Shown here: one piece after another, positions 2,407 through 33,503 of the stretch
Layout of the letters: each line of letters starts with the position of its first letter
How positions within the stretch are numbered: position 1 is the stretch's first letter
Assembly: GCA_937127375.1 (NCBI GenBank)
Contig: CAKZMA010000789.1
Coordinates: forward strand, 1-33,503
Source of the DNA: an uncultured Coleofasciculus sp.
GTDB taxonomy: Bacteria > Cyanobacteriota > Cyanobacteriia > Cyanobacteriales > Coleofasciculaceae
Direction of reading: 5' to 3'
DNA: 33,503 nt
The notes under the pieces: generated by a model
Database searches by the model: none
Seen by the model: only the letters and a program-made list of their open reading frames with translations
What the model was told of the DNA's origin: nothing
Position numbers and translations under genes: made by a program

Positions 2407-3270
2407 ATGGGTGGTCTCAAACATTTTACCTACCTCGGTGGGATGACGCTAACGATCGGGTTAACGTTGGCTTTCGCCGCACCTCAACTCAAAGCACAGT
2501 CGTTCGATATTAGTTTAGAGTTTCCTGAAGGAGAAGATATTGGTGCCCCTGAGAGGACTGGCGGGGGAGGACAAAGAGGTATACCGAATATACCTTGTGT
2601 TCCCGGAAATAGAAGATTAACGGCGCTAACGCCAACGAATAATCTAATTACCACCATATCCCCCAACCCTAAATTATTTTGGTATGTTCCCCCCACGACA
2701 GCCCAGGCAGCCGATTTTCTACTTTTGGACGAGCAAAACCAGGAAATTTATTATACGAGGATACCCCTAACCCATAGAGCCGGTATCGTAGAACTCAAGC
2801 TTCCTGATTACATATCTCTGACAACGGAAAAACGGTATCTTTGGACATTTGCCTTAGTGTGTAATACTGATGATCGCAGTCAGGATCATTTTGCTCGAGG
2901 GTGGATTCAGCGTCAACCCCTGCAGACGGGAATTGCCCCACCCGAAGAACTGAACACTCTTCTTGATCAACTCGTTTATGAACCCGAAGGGATCAAAAAA
3001 CGTCTCCAAGAGGAAGGATCTAACTATGCTCAAGAAAGGATTTGGGCAGAAACGCTGATGATTTTAGCTCGACTCTATCAGCAATTTCCCAATGACTCCG
3101 CGATCGCAGATGAGATGCAAGAATTGTTAACGTCGGTTGAGTTGGATAATATTCCAATTAACTGTTGGGTTCACTCCTGTTCGGTTGAGACTCAAGATGC
3201 TGAGGAGACTCAAGATGCTGAGGAGACTCAAGATGCTGAGGCGATGAGAGAACTGAATAAACCCCTGTAA
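2407..3270 (+). CDS. DUF928 domain-containing exported protein
   Basis: A 287-residue protein with an N-terminal signal sequence (hydrophobic segment residues about 9-26, ending AAPQLKAQS). The central part (about 65-180) has the features of the cyanobacterial DUF928 family: RRLTALTPTNN, PKLFWYVPPT, LTHRAGIVELKLPD and YLWTFALVCN, followed by RGWIQR. Its biochemical function is unknown. The C-terminal tail holds three exact copies of a six-residue unit (ETQDAE), encoded by an 18-bp tandem repeat at 3187-3240. The gene precedes a CHASE2-cyclase gene on the same strand about 100 bases away. DUF928 and CHASE2 genes are, to my knowledge, often neighbours in cyanobacteria, so the two products may work together at the membrane/periplasm. 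The start is supported by AGGAGA upstream of ATG 2407. Confidence 0.85.
   Translation: MGGLKHFTYLGGMTLTIGLTLAFAAPQLKAQSFDISLEFPEGEDIGAPERTGGGGQRGIPNIPCVPGNRRLTALTPTNNLITTISPNPKLFWYVPPTTAQAADFLLLDEQNQEIYYTRIPLTHRAGIVELKLPDYISLTTEKRYLWTFALVCNTDDRSQDHFARGWIQRQPLQTGIAPPEELNTLLDQLVYEPEGIKKRLQEEGSNYAQERIWAETLMILARLYQQFPNDSAIADEMQELLTSVELDNIPINCWVHSCSVETQDAEETQDAEETQDAEAMRELNKPL
3187..3240 (+). repeat. Three 18-bp tandem repeats in the DUF928 gene
   Basis: Three consecutive identical 18-base units (GAGACTCAAGATGCTGAG) encode ETQDAE each, close to the C-terminus. Perfect identity suggests recent slippage, and copy number may vary between strains. Confidence 0.9.
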
Positions 3271-3277
3271 CTTAGTC

Positions 3278-3333
3278 GGGGCGGGTTTAGTAAAATCCGG
3301 GTGGCAAGAAACAATCATAGTGAAACCCGCCCC
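3278..3333. repeat. GGGGCGGGTTT palindromic element, copy 1
   Basis: An 11-bp perfect inverted repeat (GGGGCGGGTTT 3278-3288, AAACCCGCCCC 3323-3333) encloses about 34 bases. It lies between the DUF928 and CHASE2 genes. Related elements with the same ends occur at 13105-13163 (degenerate), 31339-31396 and 32722-32782. It may also work as a terminator or RNA-processing hairpin between the two genes. The longest open frame of the next gene would start inside its right arm (ATG 3320), which argues against that start. Confidence 0.75.
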
Positions 3334-3373
3334 TACACACTCATGCACCATGCCCAACGAAGCGAACGGTCAA

Positions 3374-5653
3374 ATGTATAAATTCTGTAAGCGGTGGCTT
3401 TGGCAATGGCGCGGCGTTTGGATAGTTACCCCAACAGTTACGGGTTTGATCATTCTCCTGCGGTGGACTGGGATGCTGCAAACTTGGGAATGGACAGCTT
3501 ATGATCAATATATGCGTTGGCGTCCCTCTGAACCCTTGGATCAGCGAATTGGGATCGTGGGGATTGATGAGGCGGATGTGAAAAAAATTGGGCAACTTTC
3601 TCGATCTATTCTTCCGGATCAGATTTATGCCCAAGCTATTGCTAAACTCAAAACCCATAACCCTAAAGCCATTGGTTTGGATGTTTATCGGGATTTACCC
3701 GTACAACCGGGTCATCAGGAATTAGTCCAAGTCTTTGAAACAACCCCCAATCTGGTGGGGATTGAGAAAGTGGTTGGCGATAAGCGCCAGGATGCTGTCG
3801 CCGCCCCCCCAGCGTTAAAAGCCAAGGGGCAAGTGGGCGCTAATGATGTCATCTTTGATGCCGATACTAAAGTCCGACGGGCACTCTTACAAGTTGAAGA
3901 TATCAATGGAGATGTTATTCCCAGTTTCGGATTTTATCTAGCACTTCTCTATCTTGATGCTCAAGGAATTAGCCCAAAACCAATACCTGGCGAACCCAAT
4001 ACCTGGCGGTTGGGAAAAAGCACGTTTTCTCGCTTCCAAAAAAATGATGGGGGTTATGTCCGCACGGATGCTGGTGGCTACCAAATCTTATTAAATTATC
4101 GAGGGAGCAAGAAACACTTTGAAACGATCTCATTGCATGATCTTCTAGAGGATCGTATCCCTCCCGATTGGGGACGCGATCGCATTATTCTGATCGGCTT
4201 TGTCGGGGAGAGTTTCCAAGACTGGATTTTTACCCCCTATAGTAGCAGTTGGTTCGCTTTGCCCGAACGCATGTCTGGGGTAGAATTACATGCTAATATT
4301 ACCAGTCAAATCCTGAGTGCGGCTTTAGAAGGACGCCCCCTCATTCAAACTTGGTCCCCACTGCAAGAAAACCTATGGATTTTTTTCTGGTCTACTGTAG
4401 GCGCTATTATAACCTGGCAGGGACGCTATCAGAAGAAAAGGCGACGGGTCTCTGTACAACGATTTTTGAGGCTGATCCTGGCAGGGGGTGTCCTGTTGGG
4501 TAGTACTTATGGGGCGTTTTTAATCGGGTGGTGGATTCCTGTCGTTCCGCCTCTTTTGGCTTTATCAGGTTCAGTGGTGGCGATTACCAGTTATCTTGCC
4601 CATCAAGGGGGTAAAATCCGCGAAACCTTTGGACGTTATCTCACCAATGAAGTTGTGGCGAATGTCTTAGAAAATCCTGAAGGGGCTAAATTAGGTGGTG
4701 AACGGCGCACGATTACTATCTTAACGTCTGATTTAAGAGGGTTTACTGCCCTGACTGAACGTTTAATGCCAGAAGAAGTGGTGAATATTCTCAACTTTTA
4801 CTTTGCCACGATGACGGATGTGATTACTCATTACCAAGGAACAATTGATGAATTTCTTGGGGATGGAATTTTGGTTTTGTTTGGTGCGCCGACGCTGCGT
4901 GACGATGACGCCCAACGCGCGATCGCTTGCGCCGTGGCGATGCAGTTGGCGATGACATCGGTCAATGAACGAATGAAACATCTGGGTTTACCTCCGTTGA
5001 CTATGGGCATTGGGATTAATACGGGGGATGTTGTAGTGGGCAATATTGGGTCATCGAAGCGAACAAAATATGGAGTAGTGGGTTCTCAGGTTAATTTAGC
5101 CTATCGCATCGAATCCTATACGACAGACAGTCAAATTTTTATCTCTCAGTCTACTCTAAATGCTGCGGGAACTTGGGTGAGAATTGATAGCAAGATACGG
5201 GTTCAACCTAAAGGATTACCCGAACCTATTCCCATTTATGAAGTGGGGGGAATTGGCAAACCTTACTACTTGTTTTTAGCTAAACCTGATGAGCAATTTC
5301 TGCCCTTGGTCGATCCGATTCCTTTACACTACACGTTTTTGGAAGGCAAGCATGTCAGCGATATATTTTTTCGAGGAACTTTAGTCAAACTTTCTGCCAA
5401 AGGTGGCGAGATTAAATCAGAACAATTTATTAAACCTTTGACGAATATAAAGATCAATTTATTTATGGGTGATAAATTAATCTCAGTGAGTGAGGATATC
5501 TATGCCAAAGTGTTAGATAAACTCAGTGATGATCATTCGTTTTATATTCACTTTACGTTTTTACCGCCCCCTGTAGAAACGATGTTATCCAATCGTTATA
5601 AGTTACTGCGTCAACGTCAGGGCGAAAGTCAAGAACAGGCAATAAAACCTTAG
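3374..5653 (+). CDS. CHASE2-domain class III nucleotide cyclase with C-terminal PilZ-like region
   Basis: A membrane sensor predicted to make a cyclic nucleotide. From ATG 3374 (MYKFCKRW, 759 aa) the order is: first membrane segment (about 12-32), an extracytoplasmic CHASE2 domain (about 35-325, with IGIVGIDEADV and DRIILIGFVGES), further hydrophobic segments (about 335-425) and a class III cyclase domain. That domain has metal-binding Asp453 in TSDLRGFT and Asp497 in FLGDGI, and transition-state Asn574 and Arg578 in VNLAYR. A C-terminal 110 residues contain LSAKGGEI and look like a divergent PilZ fold without an RxxxR motif. The residue that usually reads Lys in adenylyl cyclases is Glu493 (IDEFLGD), so substrate choice is uncertain. 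ATGs at 3320 and 3350 are in frame; 3320 falls inside a palindromic repeat and is unlikely. The gene probably pairs with the upstream DUF928 gene. Confidence 0.9.
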   Translation: MYKFCKRWLWQWRGVWIVTPTVTGLIILLRWTGMLQTWEWTAYDQYMRWRPSEPLDQRIGIVGIDEADVKKIGQLSRSILPDQIYAQAIAKLKTHNPKAIGLDVYRDLPVQPGHQELVQVFETTPNLVGIEKVVGDKRQDAVAAPPALKAKGQVGANDVIFDADTKVRRALLQVEDINGDVIPSFGFYLALLYLDAQGISPKPIPGEPNTWRLGKSTFSRFQKNDGGYVRTDAGGYQILLNYRGSKKHFETISLHDLLEDRIPPDWGRDRIILIGFVGESFQDWIFTPYSSSWFALPERMSGVELHANITSQILSAALEGRPLIQTWSPLQENLWIFFWSTVGAIITWQGRYQKKRRRVSVQRFLRLILAGGVLLGSTYGAFLIGWWIPVVPPLLALSGSVVAITSYLAHQGGKIRETFGRYLTNEVVANVLENPEGAKLGGERRTITILTSDLRGFTALTERLMPEEVVNILNFYFATMTDVITHYQGTIDEFLGDGILVLFGAPTLRDDDAQRAIACAVAMQLAMTSVNERMKHLGLPPLTMGIGINTGDVVVGNIGSSKRTKYGVVGSQVNLAYRIESYTTDSQIFISQSTLNAAGTWVRIDSKIRVQPKGLPEPIPIYEVGGIGKPYYLFLAKPDEQFLPLVDPIPLHYTFLEGKHVSDIFFRGTLVKLSAKGGEIKSEQFIKPLTNIKINLFMGDKLISVSEDIYAKVLDKLSDDHSFYIHFTFLPPPVETMLSNRYKLLRQRQGESQEQAIKP

Positions 5654-12953: not shown

Positions 12954-13104
12954 GAACGGACTGGCATGACTGAATTTTGCAAAAAGCGGCACGTTGCCAT
13001 TTTTATTGTTGCATAAGTGGGTGACTTTGAACTCAGACCTTGCGCCATTTTCAGTTCGCCTATTTTTTATCGTTCAATTGTCCTTTTCCTGTAATTTTTC
13101 CTAA

Positions 13105-13163
13105 GGGCGGGTTTAGTCCAGTTACAAGTTTTATCAATAACCTTGTCGGTACAACCCGCGCCG
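13105..13163. repeat. GGGCGGGTTT palindromic element, copy 2 (degenerate)
   Basis: GGGCGGGTTTAG at 13105-13116 faces ACAACCCGCGCC at 13151-13162. The pairing is imperfect compared with copies 1, 3 and 4. It lies in the 260-base gap between the kinase and fmdB, downstream of the fmdB stop, and may act as a terminator. An internal ACAAG/CTTGT pair could form an inner stem. Confidence 0.55.
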
Positions 13164-13217
13164 ACAAATTGTCTTATTCTGCCTCTTATCTTTTGCTCAA
13201 TTGACTCCTAATTAATG

Positions 13218-20803: not shown

Positions 20804-21127
20804 TTACGTGTGATGTGGGTCATTAATGTATTTTTGAATGGTTGCCGCACGCTCCGTTACCTGCGGTCGAAAAAAAGTAGCTGTTTGTCCATAAAGAGGG
20901 AAGTTTTTTCAGTTCTGGGAACTCTTTCCTGAGATAGTTGGAACTTCTTCCTTTAAAAGCTCTTACCACTTGATAAATTGCATCAGTTGGGTGAATCTCA
21001 ACAAATAAGTGTATATGGTCAGGAGCTACCTCGATCGCTCTGATGTGCCAACCTTTTTCTAGAGCTAACTCACCAAATATCTCGAATATTCTATCCCGAA
21101 TTTTAAGGAAAGAAGGAAAGCCACAGG
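20804..21127 (-). pseudogene. tnpA: IS200/IS605 transposase TnpA remnant
   Basis: Readable residues match the Y1 transposase: RDRIFEIFGELALEKGWHIR, IEVAPDHIHLFVE with the HUH-type His-x-His, FKGRSSNYLRKEFPELKKL and SLWTNSYFF. The N-terminal part that normally precedes this is missing. After SYFF the frame breaks at a run of seven A (20870-20876 on the plus strand). The C-terminal end continues in another frame as ATIQKYIND, which holds the catalytic Tyr, and stops at 20804. The longest uninterrupted frame on this strand (20823-21164) includes unrelated residues at both ends. It is not expected to be active. Confidence 0.8.
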
Positions 21128-28359: not shown

Positions 28360-28365
28360 AAGGGA

Positions 28366-28476
28366 AGATGGGGGAGATGGGGGAGATGGGGGAGATGGGG
28401 GAGATGGGGAAGCAAGGGAAGCTGGGGAAGCAGGGGAAGCAGGGGAAGCAGGGGAAGCGGGGGAAGCAGGGGAAGA
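28366..28476. repeat. Purine-rich 9-bp tandem repeat array
   Basis: About five units of GATGGGGGA are followed by about eight or nine units related to AGCAGGGGA. The array starts right after the kinase stop codon (28357-28359). Open frames across it on either strand are low-complexity and not genes. Confidence 0.9.
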
Positions 28477-30270: not shown

Positions 30271-30333
30271 GATTGTGAGAAAGCATGACGGCTAAAGTAC
30301 AAATGATGAAGTCGGGGTATTTTATTGACGCCA

Positions 30334-32574
30334 ATGCAATCTCGGAAGACGCCAATATCCGCTAAACTAGACTATTTTAAGCAACATTTTTGGGTTTTTT
30401 GGCTGGATAAGCCGTGTATAAGCGACGCGGAAAGTTCTGCGACAACTGGTTGGGTGTTCTGTTGGGAGAAAAACGTTGTGGTGCATTATTTAGATCGACG
30501 GGAATGGCTGCTCACGAATGGATTAGGCAGTTTTGCTAGTGGTACGGTATGTGATGCTCGTACTCGCACCTATCACGGCTGGTTGATTGCTGCACTCGAT
30601 CCGCCCCGACAACGGACGTTATTATTCTCTCATTTGGATACCAGTCTGGAGATCGGGGGCAAGATTTGGGCGCTTTCGACCAATTTCTGGAATGGGGGTA
30701 AGACGATTGATCCGGTAGGCTATCAATTTTTGCGCTCTTTTGACACTGATCCTGTGCCTCAGTGGGTTTGGGGATACCAGCAGTGGCAATTGACACGTCA
30801 ACTGGTTATGCCTTACGGGTTAGTTGAGGATGAGGAAGGGTTTCGGGAAACGCGCCAGTTTTGCCACCGGATTCTGATTCAGTATCGCTATCAAGGCAGT
30901 GAAGTGGCAACATTAAGGTTACGTCCTTTGATTGCCGATCGCAACTTTCATCACCAGCAATTCGATGAAGAAAATTTAGAATTCTCTCAAATAGTTGGAC
31001 ATCAATGTCTTTATCTGCAAGCCATGCGCCCGGATCAAGTGGGTACGCCTTGGCAGTTGGGTTGGAGTGTAGGGGAGTATCAACCGGATGCATTGTGGTA
31101 TTGGAATTATTACTATCCTGAAGAAAACCAGCGCGGGTTAGGCGATCGCGAAGATCTCTATAGTCCTGGCTATCTTACTATTTCTCTGGAACCGGGCGCA
31201 ACAGTTACGTTAGAAGCGCGAGTGGGATGTCCTCAAGATACAGCAGCGCTCCAGTTAAATGCTCAACTGTTTGAGGCGGCGGTGCAAGGGGAAAAAGAGC
31301 GACAAAATCAGTTAGTGGCTATAGCAGCAGGGGGTGTAGGGGCGGGTTTGACAGACAACTTATGGCGCCAAACCGATAACTTAACTAAACCCGCCCTTCT
31401 AGGGGGAGCTGAGTGGGAGACGACTTGGCGTCAGTTACTCAAAGCGGGTGATCAATTTATTGCTTGGTGTGCTTCCATTAATAGCCCAACGGTGATGGCG
31501 GGTTATCCTTGGTTTAATGATTGGGGGCGGGATACACTGATTGCTTTGCCCGGATTGGCATTAACCACAGGACATTTTACTTTAGCCAGGGGACTCCTCA
31601 AAACCTTTGGTAATTATTGTCGCGATGGTTTAATTCCCAATACCTTTCCCGATGCAGAGAGTGATCCGATTTATAACAGTATTGATGCGTCTTTGTGGTG
31701 GCTGGAAACCCTGGGACTGTATTTGGAAATCACCCAAGATTGGGATTTTTTGATTGAGCAATATCCAACCGTCCGAAAAATCTACAAAGCTTATACGGCA
31801 GGTACTCGTTACAATATTCAAGTTGATGCTGTAGATGGATTGCTAACCTGGGACGCGCCGGATGTGGCGATTACCTGGATGGATGTAGTGCTGGATGGTC
31901 AACCGATTACACCACGTCTGGGAAAAGTTATTGAAATTAATGCGCTTTGGTATTCAGCATTGTGTTGGATTGGTAAATGGACGGAAAAAATGGCAACGGG
32001 GGCGGTTAAGGATCGGGTGCGTTTGTTGCACCATGCTCAACATTATATCCAGCAAGCACAACAGGTAAAAACGTCATTACAGCGGTTTTGGAATCCCGAT
32101 AAAAAATACTTTTATGACACCATAGAACCCGATGATCACCGCAATGCTCAAATTCGCCCCAATGCGGTAGTGGCGCTGTCTCTGTATCATTGTGGTTTTG
32201 CAGAGAATCAAGCGCGACAGGCTTTGCAAGTCGCACGCGATCGCTTGTTAACTCCCTACGGTTTGCGAAGCCTTGATCCGGCTGATCCTGAGTACATTGG
32301 TTATTATAATGGCGATCGCTGGCATCGGGATAGTGCTTATCACCAAGGAACGGTATGGAGTTGGCTAATTGGACCCTTTTGTCGGGCGTGGAAACGTTTC
32401 TACCCCACAGAACCGCTTCCCTTTGACTGGAAACCTTTGCTAGATCACCTTCAGCATCAAGCCTGTATTGGGTCTATTTCCGAGATTTTCGATGGAGACG
32501 AACCCCATCTCCCCCAAGGCGCGATCGCCCAAGCTTGGTCTGTTGCAGAATTAATTCGTTGCTTTAGGGAATAG
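30334..32574 (+). CDS. Glycogen debranching-type enzyme (amylo-alpha-1,6-glucosidase, GH133-like)
   Basis: A 746-residue protein starting at ATG 30334 (MQSRKTPIS); a TTG three codons upstream is in frame but less likely. The N-terminal beta-domain has REWLLTNGLGSFASGTVCDA and TRTYHGWLIAAL. The catalytic (alpha/alpha)6 barrel has INSPTVMAGYPWFNDWGRDT, GLIPNTFPDAESDPIYNSID, DGLLTWDAPDVAITWMD and ISEIFDGD. These are the landmarks of the GDE_C / amylo-alpha-1,6-glucosidase family, so it probably removes alpha-1,6 branches from glycogen. Residues about 334-357 (GVGAGLTDNLW through NLTKPALL) are encoded by a palindromic repeat and appear to be an extra segment between the two domains. The gene is divergent from the peroxiredoxin gene. 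Confidence 0.9.
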   Translation: MQSRKTPISAKLDYFKQHFWVFWLDKPCISDAESSATTGWVFCWEKNVVVHYLDRREWLLTNGLGSFASGTVCDARTRTYHGWLIAALDPPRQRTLLFSHLDTSLEIGGKIWALSTNFWNGGKTIDPVGYQFLRSFDTDPVPQWVWGYQQWQLTRQLVMPYGLVEDEEGFRETRQFCHRILIQYRYQGSEVATLRLRPLIADRNFHHQQFDEENLEFSQIVGHQCLYLQAMRPDQVGTPWQLGWSVGEYQPDALWYWNYYYPEENQRGLGDREDLYSPGYLTISLEPGATVTLEARVGCPQDTAALQLNAQLFEAAVQGEKERQNQLVAIAAGGVGAGLTDNLWRQTDNLTKPALLGGAEWETTWRQLLKAGDQFIAWCASINSPTVMAGYPWFNDWGRDTLIALPGLALTTGHFTLARGLLKTFGNYCRDGLIPNTFPDAESDPIYNSIDASLWWLETLGLYLEITQDWDFLIEQYPTVRKIYKAYTAGTRYNIQVDAVDGLLTWDAPDVAITWMDVVLDGQPITPRLGKVIEINALWYSALCWIGKWTEKMATGAVKDRVRLLHHAQHYIQQAQQVKTSLQRFWNPDKKYFYDTIEPDDHRNAQIRPNAVVALSLYHCGFAENQARQALQVARDRLLTPYGLRSLDPADPEYIGYYNGDRWHRDSAYHQGTVWSWLIGPFCRAWKRFYPTEPLPFDWKPLLDHLQHQACIGSISEIFDGDEPHLPQGAIAQAWSVAELIRCFRE
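31339..31396. repeat. GGGGCGGGTTT palindromic element inside a coding region, copy 4
   Basis: GGGGCGGGTTT (31339-31349) and AAACCCGCCC (31387-31396) form a 10-bp perfect stem. They enclose a segment with a TGGCGCCA palindrome near its centre. The ends are the same as in copies 1 and 3, including TGTAGGGGCGGG on the left. It is read in frame as residues about 336-355 of the debranching-type enzyme. Confidence 0.8.
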
Positions 32575-32584
32575 GAAAATAAGT

Positions 32585-32714
32585 AGTCATTGGTCATTGG
32601 TCATTCGTCATTTGTCATTCGTCATTCGTCATTTGTCATTTGTCATTCGTCATTCGTCATTTGTCATTTGTCATTCGTGATTTGTCATTCGTCATTCGTC
32701 ATTCGTGATTCGTC
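32585..32714. repeat. Long heptanucleotide STRR array
   Basis: About 18 tandem copies of GTCATTN (C, T or G in the last position) lie just after the debranching gene. The open frame through it is a repeat artefact. Confidence 0.9.
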
Positions 32715-32721
32715 TTATGTA

Positions 32722-32782
32722 GGGGCGGGTTTAGGGACTTCATTCACTTTGTTCCCATTAACTGAACAACAAAACCCGCCCT
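32722..32782. repeat. GGGGCGGGTTT palindromic element, copy 3
   Basis: GGGGCGGGTTT (32722-32732) and AAACCCGCCC (32772-32781) form a 10-bp perfect stem, with TGTA directly before the left arm. It lies between the STRR array and the next gene. Confidence 0.75.
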
Positions 32783-32899
32783 AACCCCACCATTAACTAG
32801 GCATGGATCAACACAATACATGGCATTGATATTAATGTCCTAATGACCCTGGCGACTGCTATAACTTGAAAACTGCTGTAAGTAAACCTCAAACCCTTA

Positions 32900-32927
32900 C
32901 TGTTCCCTGTTCCCTGTTCCCTGTTCC
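32900..32927. repeat. Four copies of CTGTTCC
   Basis: Four exact tandem heptamers form the same STRR-like unit as at 28500-28547. Confidence 0.85.
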
Positions 32928-32970
32928 CTAATCTCCACCGCTAACTTTAATTGTGTCCACCTAATTACTT

Positions 32971-33503
32971 ATGACGCCAACTCCAACCGATTACGATAGC
33001 CCCTGGAAAGATGCCATAGAAAACTACTTTGAAGACTTCATCGCCTTCTTTTTACCTGAAGCGCAGCCGGAAATTGATTGGAGTCGAGGCTACGAATTTT
33101 TAGATAAAGAACTGCAACAAGTGGTGCGCGATGCTGAAGTTGGGCGGCGTTTAGCGGATAAGCTAGCAAAGGTTTACTTACTTACAGGTGAAGAAGCGTG
33201 GGTTTTAATCCACATCGAAGTTCAAAGCCAGGAAGAAACGAACTTTGCTGAACGGATGTTCGTTTACCATTACCGCATTTTTGACCGTTATAAGCGAAAC
33301 GTTGCCAGTTTAGCAATCTTGGGAGATGAACGATCTACCTGGAGACCTAATCAGTATGGTTATCAGCTATGGTCAAGTGAGATTCAGTTTAACTTTCCCG
33401 TGGTGAAGTTGCTAGACTATTCCCAGAGGGGGTCAATCCTTGAGACTTCCCGCAATCCCTTTGCTACCGTCGTCATGGCTCATTTACAAGCCCAAGAAAC
33501 CAG
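32971..33503 (+). CDS. Rpn family PD-(D/E)XK nuclease/putative transposase, 3' end outside window
   Basis: ATG 32971 opens a frame that runs 177 codons to the window edge without a stop. Landmarks of the Rpn/transposase_31-like PD-(D/E)XK family are present: YFEDFIAFFLPEAQPEIDW, YEFLDKELQQVV, RLADKLAKVYLL with a catalytic Asp, and HIEVQSQEE with the E-x-Q pair, then ERMFVYHYRIFDRY and SLAILGDE. Relatives are recombination-promoting nucleases or domesticated transposases, which is family knowledge. It differs from the other family member at 10229 and is not a recent copy of it. No clear ribosome binding site is seen. Confidence 0.85.
   Translation, partial: MTPTPTDYDSPWKDAIENYFEDFIAFFLPEAQPEIDWSRGYEFLDKELQQVVRDAEVGRRLADKLAKVYLLTGEEAWVLIHIEVQSQEETNFAERMFVYHYRIFDRYKRNVASLAILGDERSTWRPNQYGYQLWSSEIQFNFPVVKLLDYSQRGSILETSRNPFATVVMAHLQAQET

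Follow-up and report, generated by a model that had tools for sequence, protein, structure and literature searches.

The gene of a GDE-type debranching enzyme in the draft genome of an uncultured Coleofasciculus sp. carries, in frame, a 61-bp palindromic element between the two domains of the encoded protein. The element belongs to a large family of dispersed, GTAG-tagged repeats, some copies of which lie inside unrelated genes and are read there in one constant frame. We estimate at roughly 85% the probability that it is a single-hairpin REP-type element spread by a RAYT, which landed in the linker of the enzyme and survived as an in-frame, hydrophilic and flexible segment. The window, that is, the whole stretch of 33,503 nucleotides analysed, holds the following features:

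31336..31396, + strand: family-A element, with a GTAG tag, arms of about 11 bp and a core between them, translated VGAGLTDNLWRQTDNLTKPA(L)
30475..32574, + strand: gene of the GDE-type debranching enzyme; the GTG at 30475 is a guessed start, and the reading frame is open from before 30325
30499..31209, + strand: GDE_N domain (PF12439), a Pfam match
31444..32559, + strand: GDE_C domain (PF06202), a Pfam match
32719..32781, + strand: intergenic family-B copy lying downstream of the enzyme gene
13103..13165, - strand: decayed family-A copy, intergenic
3279..3336, - strand: family-C copy; it overlaps the initial codons of the open frame 3257-5650 and probably lies upstream of the real start of that frame

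An exact copy of the arm sequence GGGGCGGGTTT stands at 31339-31349, and 31387-31397 matches its complement at all but one position; once the GTAG tag is included, the full element spans 31336-31396. A palindrome at 31339-31396 had been noticed in a sequence-only reading of this DNA, and it is present there far above chance, as a scan of the window gave seven arm matches against 0.66 expected and none of 100 shuffles reached seven. The element folds into a hairpin at -20.6 kcal/mol, and Rfam returned no match (E up to 1) for 30300-33000. The enzyme of 699 aa scores above the cut-off of TIGR01561 (putative archaeal-type glycogen debranching enzyme), with GDE_N at residues 9-245 and GDE_C at residues 324-695. 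The open reading frame runs stop-free and uninterrupted across the element, which forms residues 288-308, in agreement with the earlier view that it is translated between the two enzyme domains. The segment is presumably translated in the cell as well, and the debranching enzyme would then be working with it. The copies listed in the same reading at 3278-3333 and 32722-32782 are both real; the three window copies indeed have common ends, but by their cores they belong to different subfamilies, the one at 31336 to A, the one at 32719 to B and the one at 3279 to C. The family-B copy is flanked by heptamer tandem arrays (GTCATTC, CTGTTCC) at 32586-32714 and 32900-32929. The window also contains a tandem array of GGGGAAGCA at 28362-28475 and, at 20856-21104 on the minus strand, a 115-aa frame that matches Y1_Tnp with 80.8 bits and seems to be a truncated transposase of the IS200 type.

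To compare the linker of the enzyme, the window protein was aligned with 57 distinct homologs; these came from loci L017-L085, and the remoter loci L086-L125 did not enter the alignment. The element residues are absent from all 57 GDE homologs; the same residues in other genera without the palindrome, which would have refuted the sequence-only reading, were thus not seen there. Between two anchors, the linker has 37 residues in the window protein against a median of 16 in the 56 homologs without N. The expectation of a shorter link in homologs is therefore correct on average, but the linker is hypervariable, with a range of 6-52. On a reading of the letters, some of the long homolog linkers resemble translated purine-rich or heptamer-type repeat DNA, so that insertions may land in this linker generally. 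The GDE linker takes other repeat-like inserts in homologs, and the site therefore says little about function. In the L083 homolog (UBA11370), a run of N lies exactly in the same linker, between repeated LPTPHS residues. An AlphaFold2 model of the enzyme (24 sequences, mean pLDDT 73.6, pTM 0.80) has pLDDT under 50 at 287-309, the place of the element, between helices 263-286 and 311-326. The model is of low confidence in several other loops too, with a shallow alignment there, so that its support is weak.

The element is one of many in its genome, for which a draft of 9.52 Mb in 1596 contigs, 90% complete, is available; the draft is fragmented and may contain misassemblies. A count of all elements and of in-frame cases had been suggested together with the sequence-only reading. 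A per-strand search with GGGCGGGTTTN{20,50}AAACCCGCCC gave 518 exact-end matches against none for the reversed control, and the family-A sense peptide lies in a long stop-free frame at 27 of its 87 matches. At least one exact match was found in 35 of 97 genomes (own included), the highest numbers besides the own genome being 316, 146, 117, and 104. On 103 loci, partly picked by family-A peptide matches and hence a biased sample, 195 tagged elements were collected, 71 of them family A. Family A is 61 bp by definition, and without a fixed length 40 of 44 copies still fell in that class; B and C copies are mostly 58 to 64 bp. Most oriented copies have GTAG at one end, some have GTCG, and the other end is usually not CTAC. 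In the flanks, GGGGAGCAG-like 9-base motifs stand beside family A in 25 of 71 cases, B in 2 of 53, and C in 7 of 63. Most copies are intergenic: on unselected contigs, a single one of 51 exact elements lies inside an ORF of 200 aa or more and 50 do not.

The copies of subfamily A within genes use a single sense frame, VGAGLTDN....TDNLTKPAL. The 27 cases, spread over 24 ORFs (hand count), have a frame of 200 aa or more without a stop, the search threshold being E up to 10, so that the weakest matches, e.g. C938, may be chance; judged by hand, 21 are internal and six near an end. The antisense peptide gave 85 matches with only three in frames of at least 200 aa (Fisher p 1.3e-6 vs sense), and these three lie within about the first 30 codons and hence were not counted as intragenic. 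B' behaves in the opposite manner: its antisense peptide is in long frames in 15 of 150 scored out of 191 candidates, against 1 of 148 for its hydrophobic sense frame, where the search scored 150 of 163 (p 3.8e-4). The opposite orientation of A and B' in genes has a Fisher p of 2.3e-8. Among 71 family-A copies, one sense frame is open in 54 and two antisense frames in 38 and 56; since antisense frames are also often open, the availability of open frames does not explain the orientation skew. Mean hydropathy is -0.34 for A sense vs 0.19 for antisense, and -0.64 for B' antisense vs 1.38 for sense, and the keeping of the more hydrophilic peptide fits both families. Because A and B' share ends and yet face opposite ways in genes, a bias of the insertion strand is an unlikely cause, and the contrast, as far as it can be judged from sequence, argues for selection on the peptide, which would then have produced the skew. 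Constraint on the peptide itself appears weak at best. Diversity at the three codon positions is 0.297, 0.256, and 0.394 in 15 internal coding copies vs 0.316, 0.297, and 0.307 in 48 non-coding ones, and the third-position excess has p 0.01 against all 48 non-coding copies and 0.06 against the 33 open ones.

The host proteins are diverse. Matches in Pfam and NCBIfam include cobaltochelatase CobN, MenD, threonine-phosphate decarboxylase CobD, LD-carboxypeptidase (LdcA), an NFACT protein, a heavy-metal ATPase and an oxidoreductase in which two copies stand in tandem. They further include histidine kinases, two of which have the element within HATPase_c, and a protein of nitrogenase type that scores under the cut-offs of NifN and NifK. 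The CobN gene (L194:1830-5837, minus strand) contains three separate in-frame elements, two B' antisense and one family A. When five ORFs were compared with solved homologs, the elements lay in stretches skipped by the best alignment in all five. The skipped stretches, query vs chain, are 45 vs 18, 35 vs 7, and 90 vs 86 in CobN, 41 vs 6 in the nitrogenase-type protein, 69 vs 38 in MenD, 53 vs 5 in LD-carboxypeptidase, and 49 vs 24 in CobD; at six of the seven sites the excess in the query equals or surpasses the element length, at the third CobN site not. A CHASE2 ORF of the own genome (L196, G000:C1136) keeps a decayed family-A copy in frame, and the CHASE2 ORF of Coleofasciculus LEGE 07092 (L273/L319, G011:C253) has an intact family-A copy at the same place with similar flanks, while nine other aligned CHASE2 proteins are without one. 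The two copies appear orthologous, the insertion being common to two genera. A further B copy lies near the decayed copy in the own-genome ORF. Outside the own genome, the family-A peptide has any match (E up to 1) in four of 36 other genomes, and only the CHASE2 match sits in a long frame.

The GTAG tag suggested RAYTs as the mobiliser. From 74 loci, among them 14 of 20 stretches taken around lower-scoring RAYTs of element-rich genomes, 66 distinct RAYT proteins were obtained, and a RAYT was called paired if, within 450 bp of its gene, GGGGCGGGTT or its complement occurred twice or more with one mismatch allowed. Twelve of the 66 are paired, all in relatives; the other 54 have no such copy. 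Among full-length RAYTs, these 12 are the nearest to the one of G017 (51-100% identity), and the flank label changes twice on the RAYT tree vs 11.2 times in shuffles. They form a grade rather than one clade, enclosing a clade with other flanks, and other RAYT groups are flanked by their own GTAG repeats. RAYT mobilisation thus seems the best-supported origin of the element family. In the own draft, no member of the paired group was found; the closest matches are pieces at C826 with 57 and 42% identity, flanked by another GTAG repeat, and the cognate RAYT may have been lost or may fall in an assembly gap. G013 (146 copies) and G009 (88) are also without a cognate RAYT, and some genomes with a paired RAYT have only 1-3 exact copies. 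The own-genome RAYTs at C516 and C1119 (182 and 96 bits, cut-off 80) were rejected as mobiliser, as neither has element ends nearby; C516 is flanked by GTAGGGTGCGTTA repeats. When the top-scoring RAYT locus was taken from each of 30 genomes, none of the 30 had element ends; these were seen only at lower-scoring RAYTs of element-rich genomes.

Small dispersed repeats exist in cyanobacteria, and GTAG REPs and REPtrons were reportedly treated by Di Nocera and colleagues in 2013. The closest known kinds are Rickettsia RPEs and intragenic GTAG REPs. Cyanobacterial MITEs such as Nezha resemble it in being small and dispersed. The parallel with Rickettsia drawn by the sequence-only reading holds for the in-frame insertion of a dispersed palindromic element but not for its kind, which is a GTAG-tagged, RAYT-linked REP-type and not an RPE. 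According to the passages of PMC10969869 on RPEs, unrelated genes carry these palindromic repeats of about 150 bp as in-frame insertions, the peptide being constant within each family, and a similar mechanism in other prokaryotes is conceivable. The likeness is one of behaviour, and the present element differs in its 61 bp, its tag, its RAYT link and its cyanobacterial host; RPE-4 and RPE-6 are placed by PMC3733652, where it treats them, under CGTC repeats not associated with transposase genes. The relevant passages of the same source give GTAG REPs as 20-40 bp in all, with loops of 9-15 bp in one family, and describe them in cyanobacteria, with REP-specific RAYTs and with intragenic REPs in several bacteria. 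The element resembles GTAG REPs as characterised there in the 5' GTAG tag, the palindromic stem, the hundreds of copies, the family-specific RAYTs, and some copies inside ORFs, but it measures about 61 bp, of which some 37 bases form the core that separates the arms, and one frame and one peptide recurring in 24 ORFs are its own feature. The tag stands at one end in most oriented copies, a palindromic stem lies beside it in four of four folded copies, and the RAYT is flanked by the same repeat in relatives, though not in the own draft. Most copies, at 58-64 bp, exceed the REP range, and the four folds have one terminal stem rather than the two hairpin units of a REPIN. The element is thus REP-type by tag, stem, and transposase pairing, and because the usual REP size fails, a variant rather than a plain member. 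The view that such insertions are little described in cyanobacteria was fair for the literature found, as PMC3733652 has cyanobacterial REPs but its intragenic section names no cyanobacterium. A literature search with the arm sequence gave four papers, all of them, by their titles, on other organisms.

The preferred course of events would begin with a RAYT, an HUH tyrosine transposase, spreading the single-hairpin, GTAG-tagged element by transposition. One copy would have landed in the linker of the debranching enzyme and survived there, as the 61-bp length class keeps the frame, family A offers one usable sense frame without stops, and the encoded segment is hydrophilic and probably flexible at a site tolerating a change in length. 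That the residues are an ordinary native linker merely resembling the repeat deserves practically no credence and was rejected. The hypervariability of the linker speaks for it, but no homolog among the 57 has the residues, the linker is 37 long vs a median of 16, and the element differs at only three positions in 61 bp from a copy at L126, which sits in an unrelated gene of the Wzy_C family. If the elements were MITEs derived from an insertion sequence of the DDE type, with terminal inverted repeats, their inverted ends, small size, and high copy number would be accounted for; such an origin is very unlikely in view of the unequal ends, one with GTAG and the other usually without CTAC, and of element ends flanking RAYTs.

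HUH transposases act on single strands, which makes a strand bias plausible, and the special flank context of family A (GGGGAGCAG-like motifs in 25 of 71) would also suit an orientation skew arising from single-strand or transcription-linked insertion mechanics rather than from peptide selection. This is nevertheless quite improbable, given that A and B' have the same GTAG ends and yet opposite orientations in genes and that both retain the less hydrophobic frame. It is unlikely, too, that the elements are kept for a function, either as an mRNA hairpin or as a peptide for binding or regulation: the hairpin energy of -20.6 kcal/mol and the decayed CHASE2 copy, in frame and common to Coleofasciculus LEGE 07092, favour such a role, but the host proteins are unrelated, the sites are variable linkers, the palindrome is lost in some in-frame copies, and peptide constraint is weak. 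We raise only tentatively that family A may be a REP lineage adapted to life within proteins, with a frame-compatible length, a clean sense frame for a soluble, flexible peptide and a preference for GGGGAGCAG-type repeat sites, which would spread loops through the proteome and whose old copies would outlast the palindrome across genera.

A hairpin element thus appears to have been inserted in many genes without breaking them, as a soft loop of about 20 residues. The finding would carry the phenomenon known from Rickettsia into a large cyanobacterial genome and tie it to a testable transposase group. Moreover, two families whose ends agree but whose coding strands are opposite offer a natural experiment, in which peptide selection is separable from insertion bias. 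The finding also warns against taking segments of this kind in predicted proteins of cyanobacteria for domains, since they are mobile DNA.
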